64,000 nt of DNA, taken from Ustilago trichophora. Its lineage: Eukaryota > Basidiomycota > Ustilaginomycetes > Ustilaginales > Ustilaginaceae. The stretch spans positions 1,860,001-1,924,000 of the forward strand of contig OOIN01000003.1 of assembly GCA_900323505.1 (NCBI GenBank), given 5' to 3'. A program made the translations under genes and the position numbers. The notes under the pieces were generated by a model. That model saw nothing but the letters and a program-made list of their open reading frames with translations, was not told where the DNA came from and did no database searches. Below, piece by piece: positions 1 to 46,861 of the stretch; the first letter of the stretch is position 1; every line of letters begins with the position of its first letter.

Positions 1-1449
1 AGGATTCCCGCGTAGCGTGCAAAGCGGCGGTTGGACGAGCCGGGTAGCTTTGGCGCACAGCTGATGTCAGGTGTCACAGACGTAGCGTGGCTATCGCAGA
101 ATGAGCAACATGAACGACGACGATCAACCCTGCTGCCTTTTGGCAACTGCCAAATCTGTGTCGTGCTGTTGTTGGTCTGGATTGGGATATTCGGCGCATC
201 AGTGAGCTCCGCGGGATCGCACGACAGAGCTTGCTTGTTCGACGCAAGTGTCAGCAAGCAAGACGCTACGAACTTCAACTTCTTCAGCCATAATAGCTTT
301 CTTCAAGAGTTCGAGATGCTGCCACGTTTCATCATGAGTTCTTTGTAAAGAAGCAAGGACTCGGAGAAGCAAAGCCGAAATTTTAAGAGACCCTTCAACC
401 CAAGGATCGCTCAGTGTGGAGCAGAGAGCCGCTCGTAGAAAAATTGAGCTTTCCAAAATCCGAAAGCTCAAAGAAGAAAAAGCAAGAAAAAAAAAAAAAG
501 AAAAGCCAAATGGGAAAAGCAGTGTGACGTCTTTGTGCTGGAAGCTGAATGTATCCGGAATTGTAATGCCCGTCGTTGGCCTTGTTTCCGTGGACCTGTG
601 GAATGCATTCATCATCAATCACTCAACAAAGTAGCTAGACCATCCAACCCACCAATGATCGCAAATCGACTGTGGAAGATGATCAGCTTCTGTCCCACAC
701 GCAGCTGATATGAAGTCAGTGTGCAAGGATCTCCTTGGTGGCGCCAGCCGCCGGGGAATGAAAGTCATCAAAGGGCACACAACAAACATCGCAATGTTGC
801 GGCGTGGGAGAGGCCTGAGCGAATGCATCACTAGAGCTAAATCGCAAGCGAGAAGAGAGCGTACCGCTAATATAGGAGGGCACGTTCGATCCGGATCGAC
901 TGAGGTCACACAAACTCTGTCACGGACCCTTGTGGCTTGGCTCTCGTGCAAGGCGTGAACCACTCGTCACAAAGTGACTCAGCCTGTAATGCCCTCTCCC
1001 TCTCTTTTGTTCCGTGTCTGAGAGTGACAAGCACGACAAAGGGATAGACAATCTGGTCTTCTCTGGGAGCGCGAGCTGCAGCGACAAGTCCGCGGTCGAT
1101 GGCTTCCGAATTACGGCTGTTCATCTCTTCGCCTCAATTGCAGATGCTTGGCAGACAATGGTAAAAACTTCAGACTCCGCCTGCTCAGGCCGCTGTCCCA
1201 TGTCGTCGTCGTTATCTTCGTCCTCCTCTGGTCCCTTGCGTCTGGGATCACCACGGAAGGGCCTCGCCGGATAGTTCAGGGATGCACGTATGCAAATCTT
1301 GTCTGCACAACACAGACCCCCCCAATTTTTTAGACTGTGCGCCCGGCTATTGGTGTGGTCTTCATGAAACTATCATACTCTGAAAGAAGCTCTCTGGCTT
1401 AGACTCATGGCTATCACGATGCGGCGGGCGGTTGAGTCGGGGCCTTTGC

Positions 1450-41698: not shown

Positions 41699-43699
41699 TC
41701 AAATCTCGACCTCATCACAGTCGAGCTGAGGTTGAGTGGCAGACTCGTTGACGATGCAAGCGAAATCAGTCGCCTGTTTGCCAAGGGCGATCATCGGATG
41801 ATGCCAGATACCCGGGTGGTATTGGATCGCTTGCTCCGTTGTAGCCAAAAAGACGCCCAAGGTGCTTAGATCTGGCCGGTCATCTGCATCAACACAAGCG
41901 CAATCAAGACGAAATTTGAAATGTGTCAGTACTTCTTCCTTCTTTTCTCTAGCGGAAGGGGGAAGGAGGGTGGGGATGTGATGGGGTACCTTGACCATTG
42001 AGTGCAACGACGACGAGGAAGCCCTGCTGTTGACCGTTGATGGGGACCATGGGGATGAATGCCTGGGTTGTGAATCTGTGCCTTTCGAGCAGCTTGACCT
42101 CGAATGGCAGGCTTGTTGCAGGGTCGCAACGGTAAACGTGGATGTTTGTTCTTGCATCTGCTTCGGTGGGATAGTTGTTGAGAATTTCGGCCAGGTTGAG
42201 GTACTTTTTGGCCGTGCCTTGGTTGACGATCTTGAAAGGCTTGTCGAGAGGGTTTTGCGAAGAAGGACCGTCGATGACCGCTCCGTATCTCCCGAATGCC
42301 GATGTGGTGAGAGGAGTGGCGGGGATGAATTTGCCGTGGACCAAGATTCCCATGGTTGTCGATGTCGTCGTTGCCGAGGTGGTACTGGTGGAAGGAGCGA
42401 GGGAAGTTTCGGCACTTACCGGAGCAAAAGGGTCCGAAGTGGCCGATGGCAAAGGGTCCTGGATGTCTGCTGGTACAGCAACGGCGGGGAGGGAAGCGGG
42501 GGAGAGTTGCGAAGAGAGAATGGGACCGGCACGACGACCGTGTACGCGGAAACGCTTGATACCGCCGTCTGGGTGCATCTTGACCATAACGTGGGTGAAG
42601 GCGGCAGTGTTGCCCTCGGGAAGAGCGAAGAAATGACGACGACCGGGACCGAGCTTGGTGCGAGGCAAGAGGGTGACCCATTGAGCATCGGCAGCGGGAA
42701 TAGAGGAGGAGTTGTGCACGGTACCCAAGATCTCGGTCGACTCGGGGAAGTTGCCGAGGAAGTGGGCTGTGTCGACTTCTGCGTAGGAGAGGAAGCCTGG
42801 CTCGCCACTGTCATCGGGCAATACATCAATGGAAAACAAAGGAAGGAAGGCAATATCAGTACGTGACGCTCGAGAGAGGAGCAAGAGAGGCAAAGGCGAT
42901 AGTGAACTCACAGCTTGACAATGGACCAGTTGAAATGACCCTTTGCACGCGATCGACGAGTCTCCCAACCGTCACCCATGTCCTTGCCTCTACCAGGCAG
43001 GATGATGTTGCTGCCAGCACCAAAGTGGTTGTCATCGGTGAAGACGACCCTACCACCGTTGAGGCAGTGAGCCAGATCGAGGACGTTGTAAGCGCTGTTC
43101 TCGGCATTGACCTGTTCGCCCTCACCCTGACCGATGGGCGGTGGGGGGATGGTACCGTATACGCGGAACCTGGCAATACCGCCATCTGGAATCATGTGCA
43201 GCTTGATGTGGGTGTAGAGCTTGTCTGCTTTACCCTCGGCCACCTTGAATAGGTGTCGCTGCGAAGGACCGCAGGGTGTGACGGGGACGACGCACTCCCA
43301 TCTCGCGTCGTTCTCGGCGAGAGCATTGCCTGTAGCAGCTTCCTCTTCGGGAGTGAGAGCGAGGGCGTGAATCGAGATCTCTGGAGCTTCGTTGCCGTTA
43401 AAGTTGGCAGTGTCGACGTCGAAACCGATCAGACGACCACCTGCGTTGGGGCCGAGACGGAGGATGACCCAGTCATAGGTGGGGTTGTGACGACGTGTCT
43501 CCCAACCATCGAAGAGAGCGCCTTTGGGACCGAATTGACCCTTGAGCGATGGAGCAGGGCCGACTTTAAGGAGCGAGGAAGCCGGAGCGAACCATTCGTC
43601 AGAGGTGCTGAGGATTCGTCCACCAAGAGCGACTGAGGAGATCTCGGTGGAGGTGGAGCCGAGGACGGCATCGAACTGGTCGAGGGGGATCGCTGTCAT
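41699..43699 (-). CDS. Bifunctional allantoicase-ureidoglycolate lyase
   Basis: Three exons on the minus strand, 43,699-42,912, 42,807-41,990 and 41,883-41,699, give 596 residues. Residues about 20-190 and 205-365 are the two repeats of allantoicase (Dal2), with FDGWETRRHNPTYDW in repeat 1 and EVDTAHFLGNFPES across the first intron in repeat 2. A Ser/Thr linker leads to a ureidoglycolate lyase (AllA/Dal3) domain from about residue 415 to the end, with FKIVNQGTAKKYLNLAEIL, the RHRFTTQAFIPM block and GIWHHPMIALG. The two enzymes convert allantoate to ureidoglycolate and urea, then to glyoxylate and urea, so the fusion keeps two consecutive steps of purine use together. A similar fusion is known in Cryptococcus (DAL2,3,3). 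The second intron's donor is GTACCC, less usual. Introns are 104 and 106 bases. Confidence 0.9.
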
Positions 43700-44377
43700 T
43701 GTTTTCAATAGTTCTTGAGCGGGTTGCGGGATGAGGATGAGGGAGAGATAGGGTGAAGGAAGGAACGAAGAGCGAATACGAGTATATGAAGCAGCTGAGG
43801 GGCAACTCGACTCGGAAGGTATCGTGTGGACAAAGGTTGACCGTCCCACGAGAGGGGACCAACCACCGCTCCGGTAAATGAGCCGAATCCTTGCTTCTCC
43901 ATTCTGCATCTCACTGCCAAGCATTGCTCAGCACACTCGACCATGCCATCTCTCCCTTCATCCCCACTTTATAATTCTTCAACCGTGCTCGACCCAGATC
44001 GGATCGTCACCGTTGAAGCAGATGAGCCGATTCGAGGCTGAACGTCGTTGAACAAGTGCTTCGTGCTCTTTGGTGTTGGGCTCGGCCAAGTCCGGTGGAA
44101 GGAAGAATTCGCGTGTTGAAATTGGTCAAAGCTGGAAAGAAGAGAAAATATAAGATTTCGGTGTTCAATTCGGCTCTCGCGTGGATTTCTGCACGGAAAC
44201 TCGCCCGCTTCTTCAAGCACTCCCAATGAACCCAATCCGCTTCCACACCTTCGACCTCGGTCACTTCGCTCAACATCAAGTCACACCACAAAAGGTTGGT
44301 CCATGTCTAGCACCTTGCATTCCTATAACGATCCTGAAATGTAGCAATGTAATGCCATAATATATACATACAACAGT
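43700..44377. other. Intergenic region
   Basis: 678 bases holding the promoter of the allantoicase gene and the 3' flank of the next gene, both on the minus strand. An 88-codon ORF on the minus strand at 43,969-44,235 lacks recognisable features and is not called. Confidence 0.45.
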
Positions 44378-46861
44378 CTAGAGCGCGTGGACGACCAGCC
44401 TTCCCAGCCTGTCACCATCGCTTCCAATCACCGACTCGTCCAGATCTCCAGGCCGAGCCTTGCCTTCCTTCCAGATCCTCCACGCCTGCTTGTCATTCTC
44501 GCCCTTCAACCCTTCAAACACTCCCTGATCCTCCTCCCTCTTGTCCTCTAAAATCATCCGCTGCATAATCCCCACGTTGACTTCGAGGATCGCCTGCGAC
44601 CCCACACTGCCGACAAACTTGCTCATGCTTGGCAGCAAAAAGGGGAAATCCGAGAACGATGTGTGTTGACTCGCTTTCGTTTCCTGGACCTGTTGATCCT
44701 TGTGATACGTCCATGCTTTTGCGGGGGCTGCATTATCCTTGGACGCAAGCTCGCGCTCAAATGCTAAAATCTTTTCAGAGACCTCCTCCAAATTGCGCCC
44801 AACGACATCAGGAGTGCCGTATACAGAAGGGCAAGAGTAGAACTCCTCGTAGGTGACCCAGGCTGTGCGGAAGCCAGCTTGCTTGGCCGCAAAAGTGTCC
44901 CATGTGTGGGAGGCGACGAACCATATCCCTTGATATTCCTTCTGGGCTGAATTCGGATCCAGAGGTTCGGCCTTGATACGGCGTAGTACTTCAGCATACA
45001 CTTTAGGATCCGGTTTGGCCACACCGATCTCGTCACAGCTGAAGAGACCGATGCCGGATCCGATGCTGTTGTCTTGAACAGAGCGACCAGAGCGTGCAGC
45101 TTCGCTGTCGAGGTCGGCTCCGTCGCTCTCGCCAAGTGCACGGAGGAAAGACGCTCGTCCGAGTTGGAGGGAGCCGTTGGTGGCTGCCCATACATCGACC
45201 TTGTCTACACCGGGAGGCAAGCGACCCTTGCCATCGCGATCGCGATAGATGCGCGTGAGGGCATCTACCATACCAGGTCGAGGTCGGAGCTTCTTCAGTG
45301 CGCCCATCATGGTTTCCACCACCACCGGCTCGAATGGGTTCTCCAGCGCTTCCTCTGCCGGTCCGTCGTCTGCGTAAGATCCAGCCTTGGTGAGAGCCTC
45401 ACCTTTGCCATTCTTCTTCGGCAAAATACCTGCCTGGAGAAGAACACGCGGGAGCGTCCCCTTGAACACCTCGGCGATGGGCTTGTACTGTCCACAAACG
45501 CTCGAATAGGTGAAATCGCGCTGCGTGCCGTGGAACCAGTCCATGATCACCAGCTCTGGTACGATCTTGGGCACTCCTTTCCTCGACTCGAGCTGGTCGG
45601 GGAAGAGCGATTGGAGCGCTTCGATGCACGCATCCAATCCAAACAGCGTACCAAACATGTCGTGCACAATGACCAACCTCGACGGCGGCCCCGCAGTCTT
45701 TGACGCAGCCAAGGATGCGGCATCCGACTTTTCAGTGCCTTCAGCACCAATCGTCAGCAGCCAGCCTTTGCCGCCCGTGCTCGCCTTGCTCTCGCGAGAA
45801 ATGGTGGTTACGTCGTCCATGTGCGTCTTCCATTGTGTGAAGTCTTCGCTGTTGATCGTGTACAGCGGCTTGCTGACCGGTACTATGTCTGCGCCCGTGA
45901 TAGGGATGGGCTCCACCCAAGGATCGAGCACCAGCGCTTGGCCGAAGGGACAGTCGGTATGACGCAGAGTTTGGATCGCCGTGGATCCGCCAAAGCTGTG
46001 ACCAATGAGCCAGGGGTCTTGCATCTTGAGCTTGCTGCTAAAGCCAGAAAGGAGATGGGAGCGGTGCTCGCGGATCTTGTTGTCATCGCGCTGAGTGCGA
46101 GTACAGGATTCAACGAGGTTGGAAGCTTTGCCAGCGTTGATCTCTTGAAGGACGTTGAGAGCGGCAACGACTTCTCTGCGTCGGAATTCGACTTGAGCTC
46201 GACGCACGTCCATCGGTTCTGGCTTGCCATCGACTTCGGTGGGTCGCACATAGATCTTATTCTCCACGCCGTCGGATCCGCCAGATAACCATCGGAAGAG
46301 ACCTGACGAGCTTTGACTCTCCTTTCCGAGGGAATGATGGATGGTAGTTGACGCCGACGAGCCATCGCGATGCTCGACAGCAGCCACAACGATGCCCGAT
46401 CCAGCGAGTGAAGAACAGTAGGCCGAGTAGGTCGTGCGTGTACCACCCATGCCATGGCTAAACACAGCTACAGGGAAGCCTTCCGATGGAGCATCAGAGG
46501 CGAGAGGTGCATCGACTACAGCGCGCAGCTTCTGCGATACGACGCTGTAGGCGGGCAAGATGATGGGGAGAGCGAGGTACTTTGGAATACCTGCATACTT
46601 GAGGAGACCGCCGATAGAGCGCAATTTGGGCGCTTCGAGCCAGTCAAGAGATCGACCTGGCGCCGCGTCTTTTACGCTCGAGGAAGGATAGTAGATGGTG
46701 ACAAGGATCGTGTCTGTGGTGAGGAGCTCCTTGGTCACACCTCCTTCCTGGTAGGTGTACGGGTTGGGCGAATCTTGCTTGATCGGTGAAGGTAGTGGGA
46801 CTTCCAGCGTGACGGTTGAAACGGCATACCGCGCATTCTGCGGTGGCTGTGGGAGCGACAT
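44378..46861 (-). CDS. PAF-acetylhydrolase (lipase) with an inserted HAD dehalogenase-type domain
   Basis: 827 residues, intronless. The outer protein is a platelet-activating-factor acetylhydrolase/phospholipase A2 group VII hydrolase: nucleophile Ser289 in GHSFGGS, Asp313 in VLDPWVEP and His733 in SQHTSFSDF. Between the core strand ending near residue 371 (WLLTIG) and the His segment lie about 355 residues forming a type II haloacid dehalogenase domain: nucleophile Asp401 in VHDMFGTLF, ATNGS, then AKPDPKVYAEVL, and WDTFAAKQAGFRTAWV. The HAD domain is thus nested inside the hydrolase, between the second and third triad residues, instead of joined at an end. All catalytic residues of both domains appear present. 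Substrates of neither are known; short-chain phospholipids suit the outer domain. No signal peptide is seen, so an intracellular enzyme. Confidence 0.85.
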   Translation of the reverse strand: MSLPQPPQNARYAVSTVTLEVPLPSPIKQDSPNPYTYQEGGVTKELLTTDTILVTIYYPSSSVKDAAPGRSLDWLEAPKLRSIGGLLKYAGIPKYLALPIILPAYSVVSQKLRAVVDAPLASDAPSEGFPVAVFSHGMGGTRTTYSAYCSSLAGSGIVVAAVEHRDGSSASTTIHHSLGKESQSSSGLFRWLSGGSDGVENKIYVRPTEVDGKPEPMDVRRAQVEFRRREVVAALNVLQEINAGKASNLVESCTRTQRDDNKIREHRSHLLSGFSSKLKMQDPWLIGHSFGGSTAIQTLRHTDCPFGQALVLDPWVEPIPITGADIVPVSKPLYTINSEDFTQWKTHMDDVTTISRESKASTGGKGWLLTIGAEGTEKSDAASLAASKTAGPPSRLVIVHDMFGTLFGLDACIEALQSLFPDQLESRKGVPKIVPELVIMDWFHGTQRDFTYSSVCGQYKPIAEVFKGTLPRVLLQAGILPKKNGKGEALTKAGSYADDGPAEEALENPFEPVVVETMMGALKKLRPRPGMVDALTRIYRDRDGKGRLPPGVDKVDVWAATNGSLQLGRASFLRALGESDGADLDSEAARSGRSVQDNSIGSGIGLFSCDEIGVAKPDPKVYAEVLRRIKAEPLDPNSAQKEYQGIWFVASHTWDTFAAKQAGFRTAWVTYEEFYSCPSVYGTPDVVGRNLEEVSEKILAFERELASKDNAAPAKAWTYHKDQQVQETKASQHTSFSDFPFLLPSMSKFVGSVGSQAILEVNVGIMQRMILEDKREEDQGVFEGLKGENDKQAWRIWKEGKARPGDLDESVIGSDGDRLGRLVVHAL

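Follow-up and report, generated by a model that had tools for sequence, protein, structure and literature searches.

How can an active-site loop absorb a whole enzyme yet stay functional, and does such nesting bring coupling between the two activities? The question is raised by a single gene in the window, by which we mean the whole 64,000-nucleotide stretch of Ustilago trichophora DNA analyzed here (C3:1860001-1924000, from a genome of 38.8 Mb in 45 contigs). A single open reading frame (ORF) on the minus strand, 44378..46861, runs from an ATG at 46861 to a stop at 44378 and encodes 827 residues in which a haloacid dehalogenase-like (HAD) enzyme is nested inside a platelet-activating factor acetylhydrolase (PAF-AH); read on the plus strand, the same region contains many stops. 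Based on the order of its parts, their conservation, the single clade that they form in each of two trees, the signature of purifying selection and the predicted folds, we propose that the gene probably encodes a bifunctional hydrolase that originated by one insertion and in which both sites work.

The first-pass annotation, made from the letters of this DNA, had described an unbroken 827-codon frame carrying Ser289 and Asp313 of a PAF-AH, then Asp401 and the ATNGS, AKPDP and WDTFAAKQ motifs of a HAD, and only then the PAF-AH His733; the frame and all of these residues and motifs are found as described. Its figure of about 355 residues for the insert is close but low, as 361 are counted from the end of the strand GWLLTI to His733. 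All parts of the gene lie on the minus strand. The N-terminal part of the PAF-AH (residues 1-373; 45743..46861) ends just past GWLLTI, a junction placed by alignment with unfused PAF-AH, and contains a match to PF03403, PAF-AH_p_II, at residues 49-359 (E 1.2e-48; 165.9 bits, above the curated cut-off of 20). It is followed by a variable first linker (residues 374-393; 45683..45742), which shares 20-25% identity with Violaceomyces and P. flocculosa versus 56-60% in the HAD part, and by the inserted HAD domain (residues 394-704; 44750..45682), which corresponds to approximately an entire stand-alone HAD protein. A second linker (residues 705-729; 44675..44749) leads to the C-terminal part of the PAF-AH (residues 730-827 and the stop; 44378..44674), which was delimited by alignment with unfused PAF-AH and bears the catalytic His. 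GC content is uniform (0.57, 0.57 and 0.56).

The same domain order, which the first-pass annotation had proposed to look for among fungal proteins, is not confined to this locus. A search of 5.8 billion protein sequences, with scoring limited to the 7998 candidates sharing most words, returned 33 hits, and 17 of them (P0002-P0016 and P0018-P0019) retain the in-frame nested order with motifs intact, down to 41% identity in Violaceomyces. Those with an organism name come from U. trichophora itself (the second genomic copy discussed below), Ustilago hordei, two Sporisorium, Pseudozyma hubeiensis, Melanopsichium, Kalmanozyma, Moesziomyces, Testicularia, P. flocculosa and Violaceomyces palustris, and all 17 together with the window protein constitute the 18 fused proteins referred to throughout. 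One further hit, P0017 (743 residues), has the nested order but departs from the shared frame toward the end of the HAD, through a gene-model error, a sequencing error or decay; it was kept outside both trees and alignments A2, A3 and A4. The remaining 15 hits, including those from Ceraceosorus bombacis and Tilletiaria, have no HAD motif.

With the HAD part alone as query, 53 hits were recovered, and the named ones are proteins of 233-312 residues. Their sources are Exobasidium, Tilletia, Ceraceosorus, Sympodiomycopsis, red yeasts and other Microbotryomycetes, along with one ascomycete (Neophaeococcomyces) and one amoeba (Planoprotostelium); no stand-alone HAD from a fused species occurs among the named rows of these 53. 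Similarly, an Exobasidium HAD used as query against the window's genome matched only the two fused copies. A scan of that genome with TIGR01428 marked seven places: the two fused copies, plus five on C10, C11, C12, C30 and C36 that the Exobasidium query did not match.

The insertion site can be read directly from these relatives. Across it, the unfused PAF-AH of Ceraceosorus (P0020) reads WLLTLTGSKHTDFSDFPFLLP and an uninterrupted PAF-AH paralog in the window's own genome reads WLMTLTGSKHTDFSDYPFLLP. The fused protein instead runs through GWLLTIGAEG, the variable linker, the HAD and the second linker to ASQHTSFSDFPFLLP, which aligns with GSKHTDFSDFPFLLP of unfused PAF-AH. Across the 18 fused proteins, 356-419 residues separate the strand from the His, versus about four in the unfused rows with the His pattern, and HAD motifs were found in none of the 36 unfused PAF-AH rows checked. 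The comparison of fused and unfused proteins therefore places the cut where a short turn connects a core strand (residues 366-373 of the predicted model) to the catalytic His. The start of the guest lies no more than a few residues from the initiator Met of stand-alone HADs, and its end lies near their last residues, indicating that nearly the entire coding sequence was taken in. The trees, the unfused relatives, selection across the frame and the predicted fold agree in upholding the claim that a whole HAD enzyme lies between the second and third residues of the PAF-AH triad.

A second intact fused copy resides on C5, with 88% DNA and 91.5% protein identity to the window copy, and is identical to P0002 of U. 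trichophora. The fused gene and its neighbor are both duplicated there, at 88% DNA identity and in the same order. Published sizes for two U. trichophora strains are 20.7 Mb (PMC4966473; PMC8951962), about half of the 38.8 Mb here. Size and duplicated genes together suggest that the genome is that of a diploid hybrid or a mixture of two lineages. The uninterrupted paralog (paralog A; L005:695-3184 on C1; 829 residues with a long tail) was found, unlike the fused gene, in one copy only in this doubled genome, which also has a weak PF03403 match on C27.

Divergence between the two fused copies permits an estimate of selection along the frame. As a comparison of two sequences, without error bars, the ratio of nonsynonymous to synonymous substitution rates (dN/dS; NG86 and YN00, respectively) is 0.088 and 0.120 for the whole gene, 0.095 and 0.126 for the PAF-AH N-terminal part, 0.052 and 0.072 for the HAD insert, 0.54 and 0.55 for the second linker (residues 704-729) and 0.14 by both methods for the C-terminal part; the 31 codons around His733 (730-760) contain zero amino-acid changes. 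Constraint on the HAD is therefore no weaker than on its host, and its low ratio excludes an intron or debris and disfavors a passive spacer. These values also bear on whether the fusion is real. Such a frame could in principle arise from two adjacent genes, from intron retention or from misassembly, and the unusual form of the gene is the one feature that invites the suspicion. Yet 17 database proteins drawn from several sources share the frame with the window; two copies whose DNA differs by 12% retain it with an insert dN/dS of 0.05-0.07; a simple consensus scan found no splice donor-like site at the first junction; and the PAF-AH C-terminal part is conserved and in the same frame. We thus regard a false fusion as having next to no probability, and a retained intron or merged genes were rejected on the relatives' shared frame, dN/dS and the junction scan.

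Phylogenetic trees of host and guest, respectively, place the origin of the fusion. The PAF-AH tree comprises 46 rows (the 18 fused proteins, 21 rows from a second PAF-AH search, in which the best 120 of 847 hits were listed, and seven unfused rows from the first search) and resolves two separate clades, type A, whose 15 rows all lack HAD motifs, and type B. The 18 fused proteins group together as one clade (support 100/99) inside type B (100/98). The other five members of type B, from Ceraceosorus, Tilletiaria and Exobasidium plus two further rows, have no insert, and their branching order relative to the fused clade is not settled. Both PAF-AH types are present in nine named species, namely those of Ceraceosorus, Exobasidium, Testicularia, Melanopsichium, Kalmanozyma and Moesziomyces along with P. 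flocculosa, P. hubeiensis and Sporisorium reilianum; for Kalmanozyma and Moesziomyces, the type A rows lie outside the tree and were assigned by search rank. The HAD tree comprises 50 rows and draws on 32 of the 53 HAD hits, leaving out P0036 and P0079, which are fragments of fused genes, and 19 further rows. In this tree, the HAD parts of the fused proteins again form one clade (99/84, bootstrap not settled), near the stand-alone HADs of Ustilaginomycotina.

In the NCBI taxonomy, the fused Violaceomyces, Testicularia and P. flocculosa belong to Ustilaginomycetes, and the unfused type B proteins of Ceraceosorus, Exobasidium and Tilletiaria belong to Exobasidiomycetes. The simplest reading is one insertion that predates the split between Ustilaginales and Violaceomycetales. 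A stand-alone HAD gene from the same fungal group would have been inserted in frame, once, into one of two PAF-AH paralogs. In Exobasidium rhododendri, where host and guest are separate genes, the HAD (locus 004246) and the type B gene (locus 004400) lie on contigs whose recorded length is identical (5,450,147), so they probably share a chromosome without being neighbors.

Are the catalytic residues of both enzymes retained? To answer this, the fused proteins were aligned with stand-alone HADs (A3) and with unfused PAF-AHs (A4) separately, because joint alignments that included both kinds, or long-tailed PAF-AHs, misplaced the PAF-AH C-terminal part. The PAF-AH nucleophile Ser289 in GHSFGGS (45995..45997) and the triad residues Asp313 (45923..45925) and His733 (44663..44665) are conserved in 18/18 fused and 15/15 unfused rows of A4. 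The A4 rows were selected by trial until the His motif aligned, so the invariance of His733 in that alignment leans on the choice; an alignment-free pattern for the motif matched 33 of 36 unfused rows, all except P0149, P0161 and P0034.

In the guest, the nucleophile Asp401 (45659..45661), Thr561 of motif II (ATNGS; 45179..45181) and Lys616 of motif III (AKPDP; 45014..45016) occur in all 18 fused and all 24 stand-alone rows. The same is true of His652 and Asp655 in the His652-Thr-Trp-Asp655 stretch of motif IV (44897..44908) and of the pair Glu672-Glu673 (44843..44848), a candidate partner of His652. With Thr405, Gln447, Arg448 and Asn562, these complete the set of invariant residues across the 42 rows. 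The cap region of the HAD also carries a conserved DWFHxTQRDFTY-like motif.

HAD phosphatases carry a second Asp two residues after the nucleophile (DxD). Here, that residue is Phe in 18/18 fused proteins, Leu or Phe in the 24 stand-alone rows of A3, and never Asp, which disfavors phosphatase chemistry. The phosphatase domain of soluble epoxide hydrolase (EPHX2) is likewise a HAD. EPHX2 also unites a HAD-type domain and an alpha/beta-hydrolase in one chain. It is the closest known combination of these domain kinds and the precedent for supposing that the HAD acts as a lipid phosphatase on the PAF-AH product: portions of PMC7000630 and PMC4548251 describe an end-to-end union in which the N-terminal lipid-phosphate phosphatase comes first. 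In the fused protein, by comparison, the HAD is nested at residues 394-704 and has no phosphatase Asp in any of the 42 rows. Structure searches with the predicted model point the same way. The 50 matches listed consist of PAF-AHs or esterases and of dehalogenase-type HADs that act at a carbon centre; no phosphatase or soluble epoxide hydrolase is among the 50 matches listed per search, which does not by itself exclude them. We therefore find a lipid phosphatase very unlikely, and the earlier suggestion that the HAD removes phosphate was abandoned on the residue two after the nucleophile.

The nearest solved HADs among the matches listed are L-2-haloacid dehalogenases and cis-epoxysuccinate hydrolases, with L-azetidine-2-carboxylate hydrolase at rank 50, and all three act at the carbon next to a carboxylate. 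Type II/L-2-haloacid dehalogenases (TIGR01428; 1jud, 1zrm, 7arp) and cis-epoxysuccinate hydrolases (8wbk) share with the fused HAD the fold, the nucleophilic Asp, the Thr/Asn of motif II, the Lys and the Asp. For cis-epoxysuccinate hydrolase, PMC10869282 describes a mechanism in which Asp18 is the nucleophile, Arg55 is the proposed proton donor, Asp193 holds Lys164, and a His190-Glu212 pair is proposed to activate water. His652 precedes Asp655 by three residues, as His190 precedes Asp193, and the Glu pair follows Asp655 by 17-18 residues versus 19 in that enzyme. We read the HAD as a carbon-centre hydrolase of unassigned substrate.

Under the proposed bifunctional hydrolase, the PAF-AH half (group VII phospholipase A2-like) would be a discontinuous alpha/beta-hydrolase. 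Residues 1-373 would provide most of the fold along with Ser289 and Asp313, and residues 730-827 would supply His733 after a 356-residue excursion in which two linkers carry a complete HAD enzyme. The PAF-AH half would share GHSFGG, the Asp, the His and the alpha/beta-hydrolase fold with fungal and human PAF-AHs (PF03403; human Lp-PLA2, 3d59/5i8p; Trichoderma harzianum, PMC4070952), while differing from unfused PAF-AHs in the 356-419 residues, rather than about four, between strand and catalytic His. The predicted model (1..826) covers 347 of the 369 residues of human Lp-PLA2 (5i8p_A). Ser289 may cleave short or oxidized sn-2 acyl chains off phospholipids; Asp401 may attack a carbon in a small carboxylate that bears a leaving group (a halide, an epoxide oxygen or the like); and His652, together with Glu672/673, may assist water in hydrolyzing the ester intermediate. 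Both sites appear able to work, with or without coupling. In portions of PMC4070952, the Trichoderma enzyme is cytoplasmic and most active without Ca, and without it the fungus grows more slowly in heat and contains less eicosanoic acid and ergosterol; on this analogy, the fused protein is probably cytosolic as well.

Coupling of the two sites is a stronger claim, which we consider rather unlikely. The HAD, tethered beside the catalytic His, would detoxify a short electrophilic acid (epoxy, halo or otherwise 2-substituted) freed by the PAF-AH from oxidized phospholipids, and its cap would gate the PAF-AH pocket as it opens and closes. If so, a lipid-damage repair enzyme would have been formed from a hydrolase nested in the catalytic loop of another. 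Alternatively, the insert could mainly serve the PAF-AH, whether as lid, allosteric module or scaffold (for instance by gating the mouth or binding a ligand), with its own catalysis secondary or lost. Its place beside the catalytic His and its standing as the most conserved long part of the protein would suit such a role. A pure lid, however, needs no catalytic residues, so that the retention of Asp401, Thr405, Thr561, Lys616, His652, Asp655, Glu672 and Glu673 in 18/18 fused and 24/24 stand-alone proteins counts against it, as does the genome search with the Exobasidium HAD, which found no stand-alone copy for the HAD job. We hold this alternative to be improbable.

The linkers raise a different possibility, in which post-translational cutting frees the HAD and leaves a nicked PAF-AH. 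The second linker evolves quickly, both linkers vary in sequence and the whole stretch varies in length as well, and a W/Y-x-Y patch in the second linker is common to all 18 fused proteins, all of which could fit processing. Variable linkers are nonetheless expected for any flexible tether, and we know of no protease site that corresponds to the patch; we give cutting only a small chance. As an observation in its own right, the W/Y-x-Y patch (window 44705-44713, residues 717-719) lies before the His and persists in 18/18 despite the rapid evolution around it.

Several points weigh against a bifunctional hydrolase with two working sites and a single origin. The predicted template modelling score (pTM) is 0.59-0.66 over two models, and the His733 loop has low predicted local distance difference test (pLDDT) values, with block means of 37-54 over the two models. 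Owing to this poorly modelled loop and the low pTM, it is homology and fold coverage that lead us to infer a Ser289-Asp313-His733 triad that would be closed in space. In the HAD tree, the position of the fused clade next to Tilletia is weakly supported (94/39, with unsettled bootstrap). The probable cytosolic location is taken from the Trichoderma enzyme. Type II dehalogenases have a halide-binding Arg in the cap, and the invariant Gln447-Arg448 pair in the cap region of the fused HAD is at most a candidate equivalent of that active-site Arg. The NCBIfam HAD_type_II model (TIGR01428) matches at E 3.2e-13, with its best stretch at 606-670, but 50.1 bits is below the equivalog cut-off of 125.4. 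The Pfam HAD match (13.7 of 26.4 bits, E 0.084) is also below cut-off, so that the host alone scores in Pfam. On the TIGR01428 score, we rejected classification of the insert as a type II haloacid dehalogenase, although the fold and the core catalytic residues (Asp, Thr/Ser, Lys, Asp) agree with that family. The fused HAD further departs from type II dehalogenases in its DWFHxTQRDFTY-like cap motif and in being embedded in another enzyme.

The first-pass annotation had also called the arrangement rare, a term that calls for some qualification. According to portions of a 2026 survey (PMC13114784), domain insertion occurs in 20% of multidomain proteins, and the same survey calls it relatively rare, at 9% of architectures in a 2004 analysis. 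One domain interrupts another here as in those cases, but two complete hydrolases are involved and the cut is at the catalytic His; we consider the unusual feature to be insertion within about four residues of that His, with host and guest both complete enzymes. A word search of the survey's main text, with supplements not covered, showed no HAD/hydrolase pair of this kind. Searches of the open-access literature for PAF-AH combined with HAD (with Ustilago or domain insertion), or for domain insertion with Ustilago maydis, found nothing, and because the well-known soluble epoxide hydrolase also drew none there, this zero says little. The locus provides a natural, tree-placed case in which a complete enzyme was accepted about four residues from the catalytic residue of another, and because host and guest each survive in unfused form, alongside an uninterrupted paralog, the general question posed at the outset becomes testable.

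The nested architecture also corrects database annotation, which names one half only. Functionally named fused proteins are labelled PAF-AH or similar, or, in P. hubeiensis SY62, "haloacid dehalogenase". Two HAD-only proteins from JGI, P0048 and P0051, are named "platelet-activating factor acetylhydrolase", which may have been carried over from fused proteins, and the HAD-only P0050 of Ceraceosorus is named "PAF-1-RELATED". Two records have unexpected hosts: P0041, a HAD recorded under the amoeba Planoprotostelium fungivorum, clusters among Exobasidiomycete HADs, and P0102, a PAF-AH recorded under the plant Cichorium endivia, has 55% identity over 43% of the smut paralog. Both are likely fungal contamination, or transfer.

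Finally, ORFs in other frames overlap the fused gene at 45074-45703 (plus strand, 209 residues) and 45883-46455 (minus strand, 190 residues) and are most likely by-products of GC-rich codons. The next gene downstream, at 41949-43924 on the minus strand, is presumably an allantoicase.
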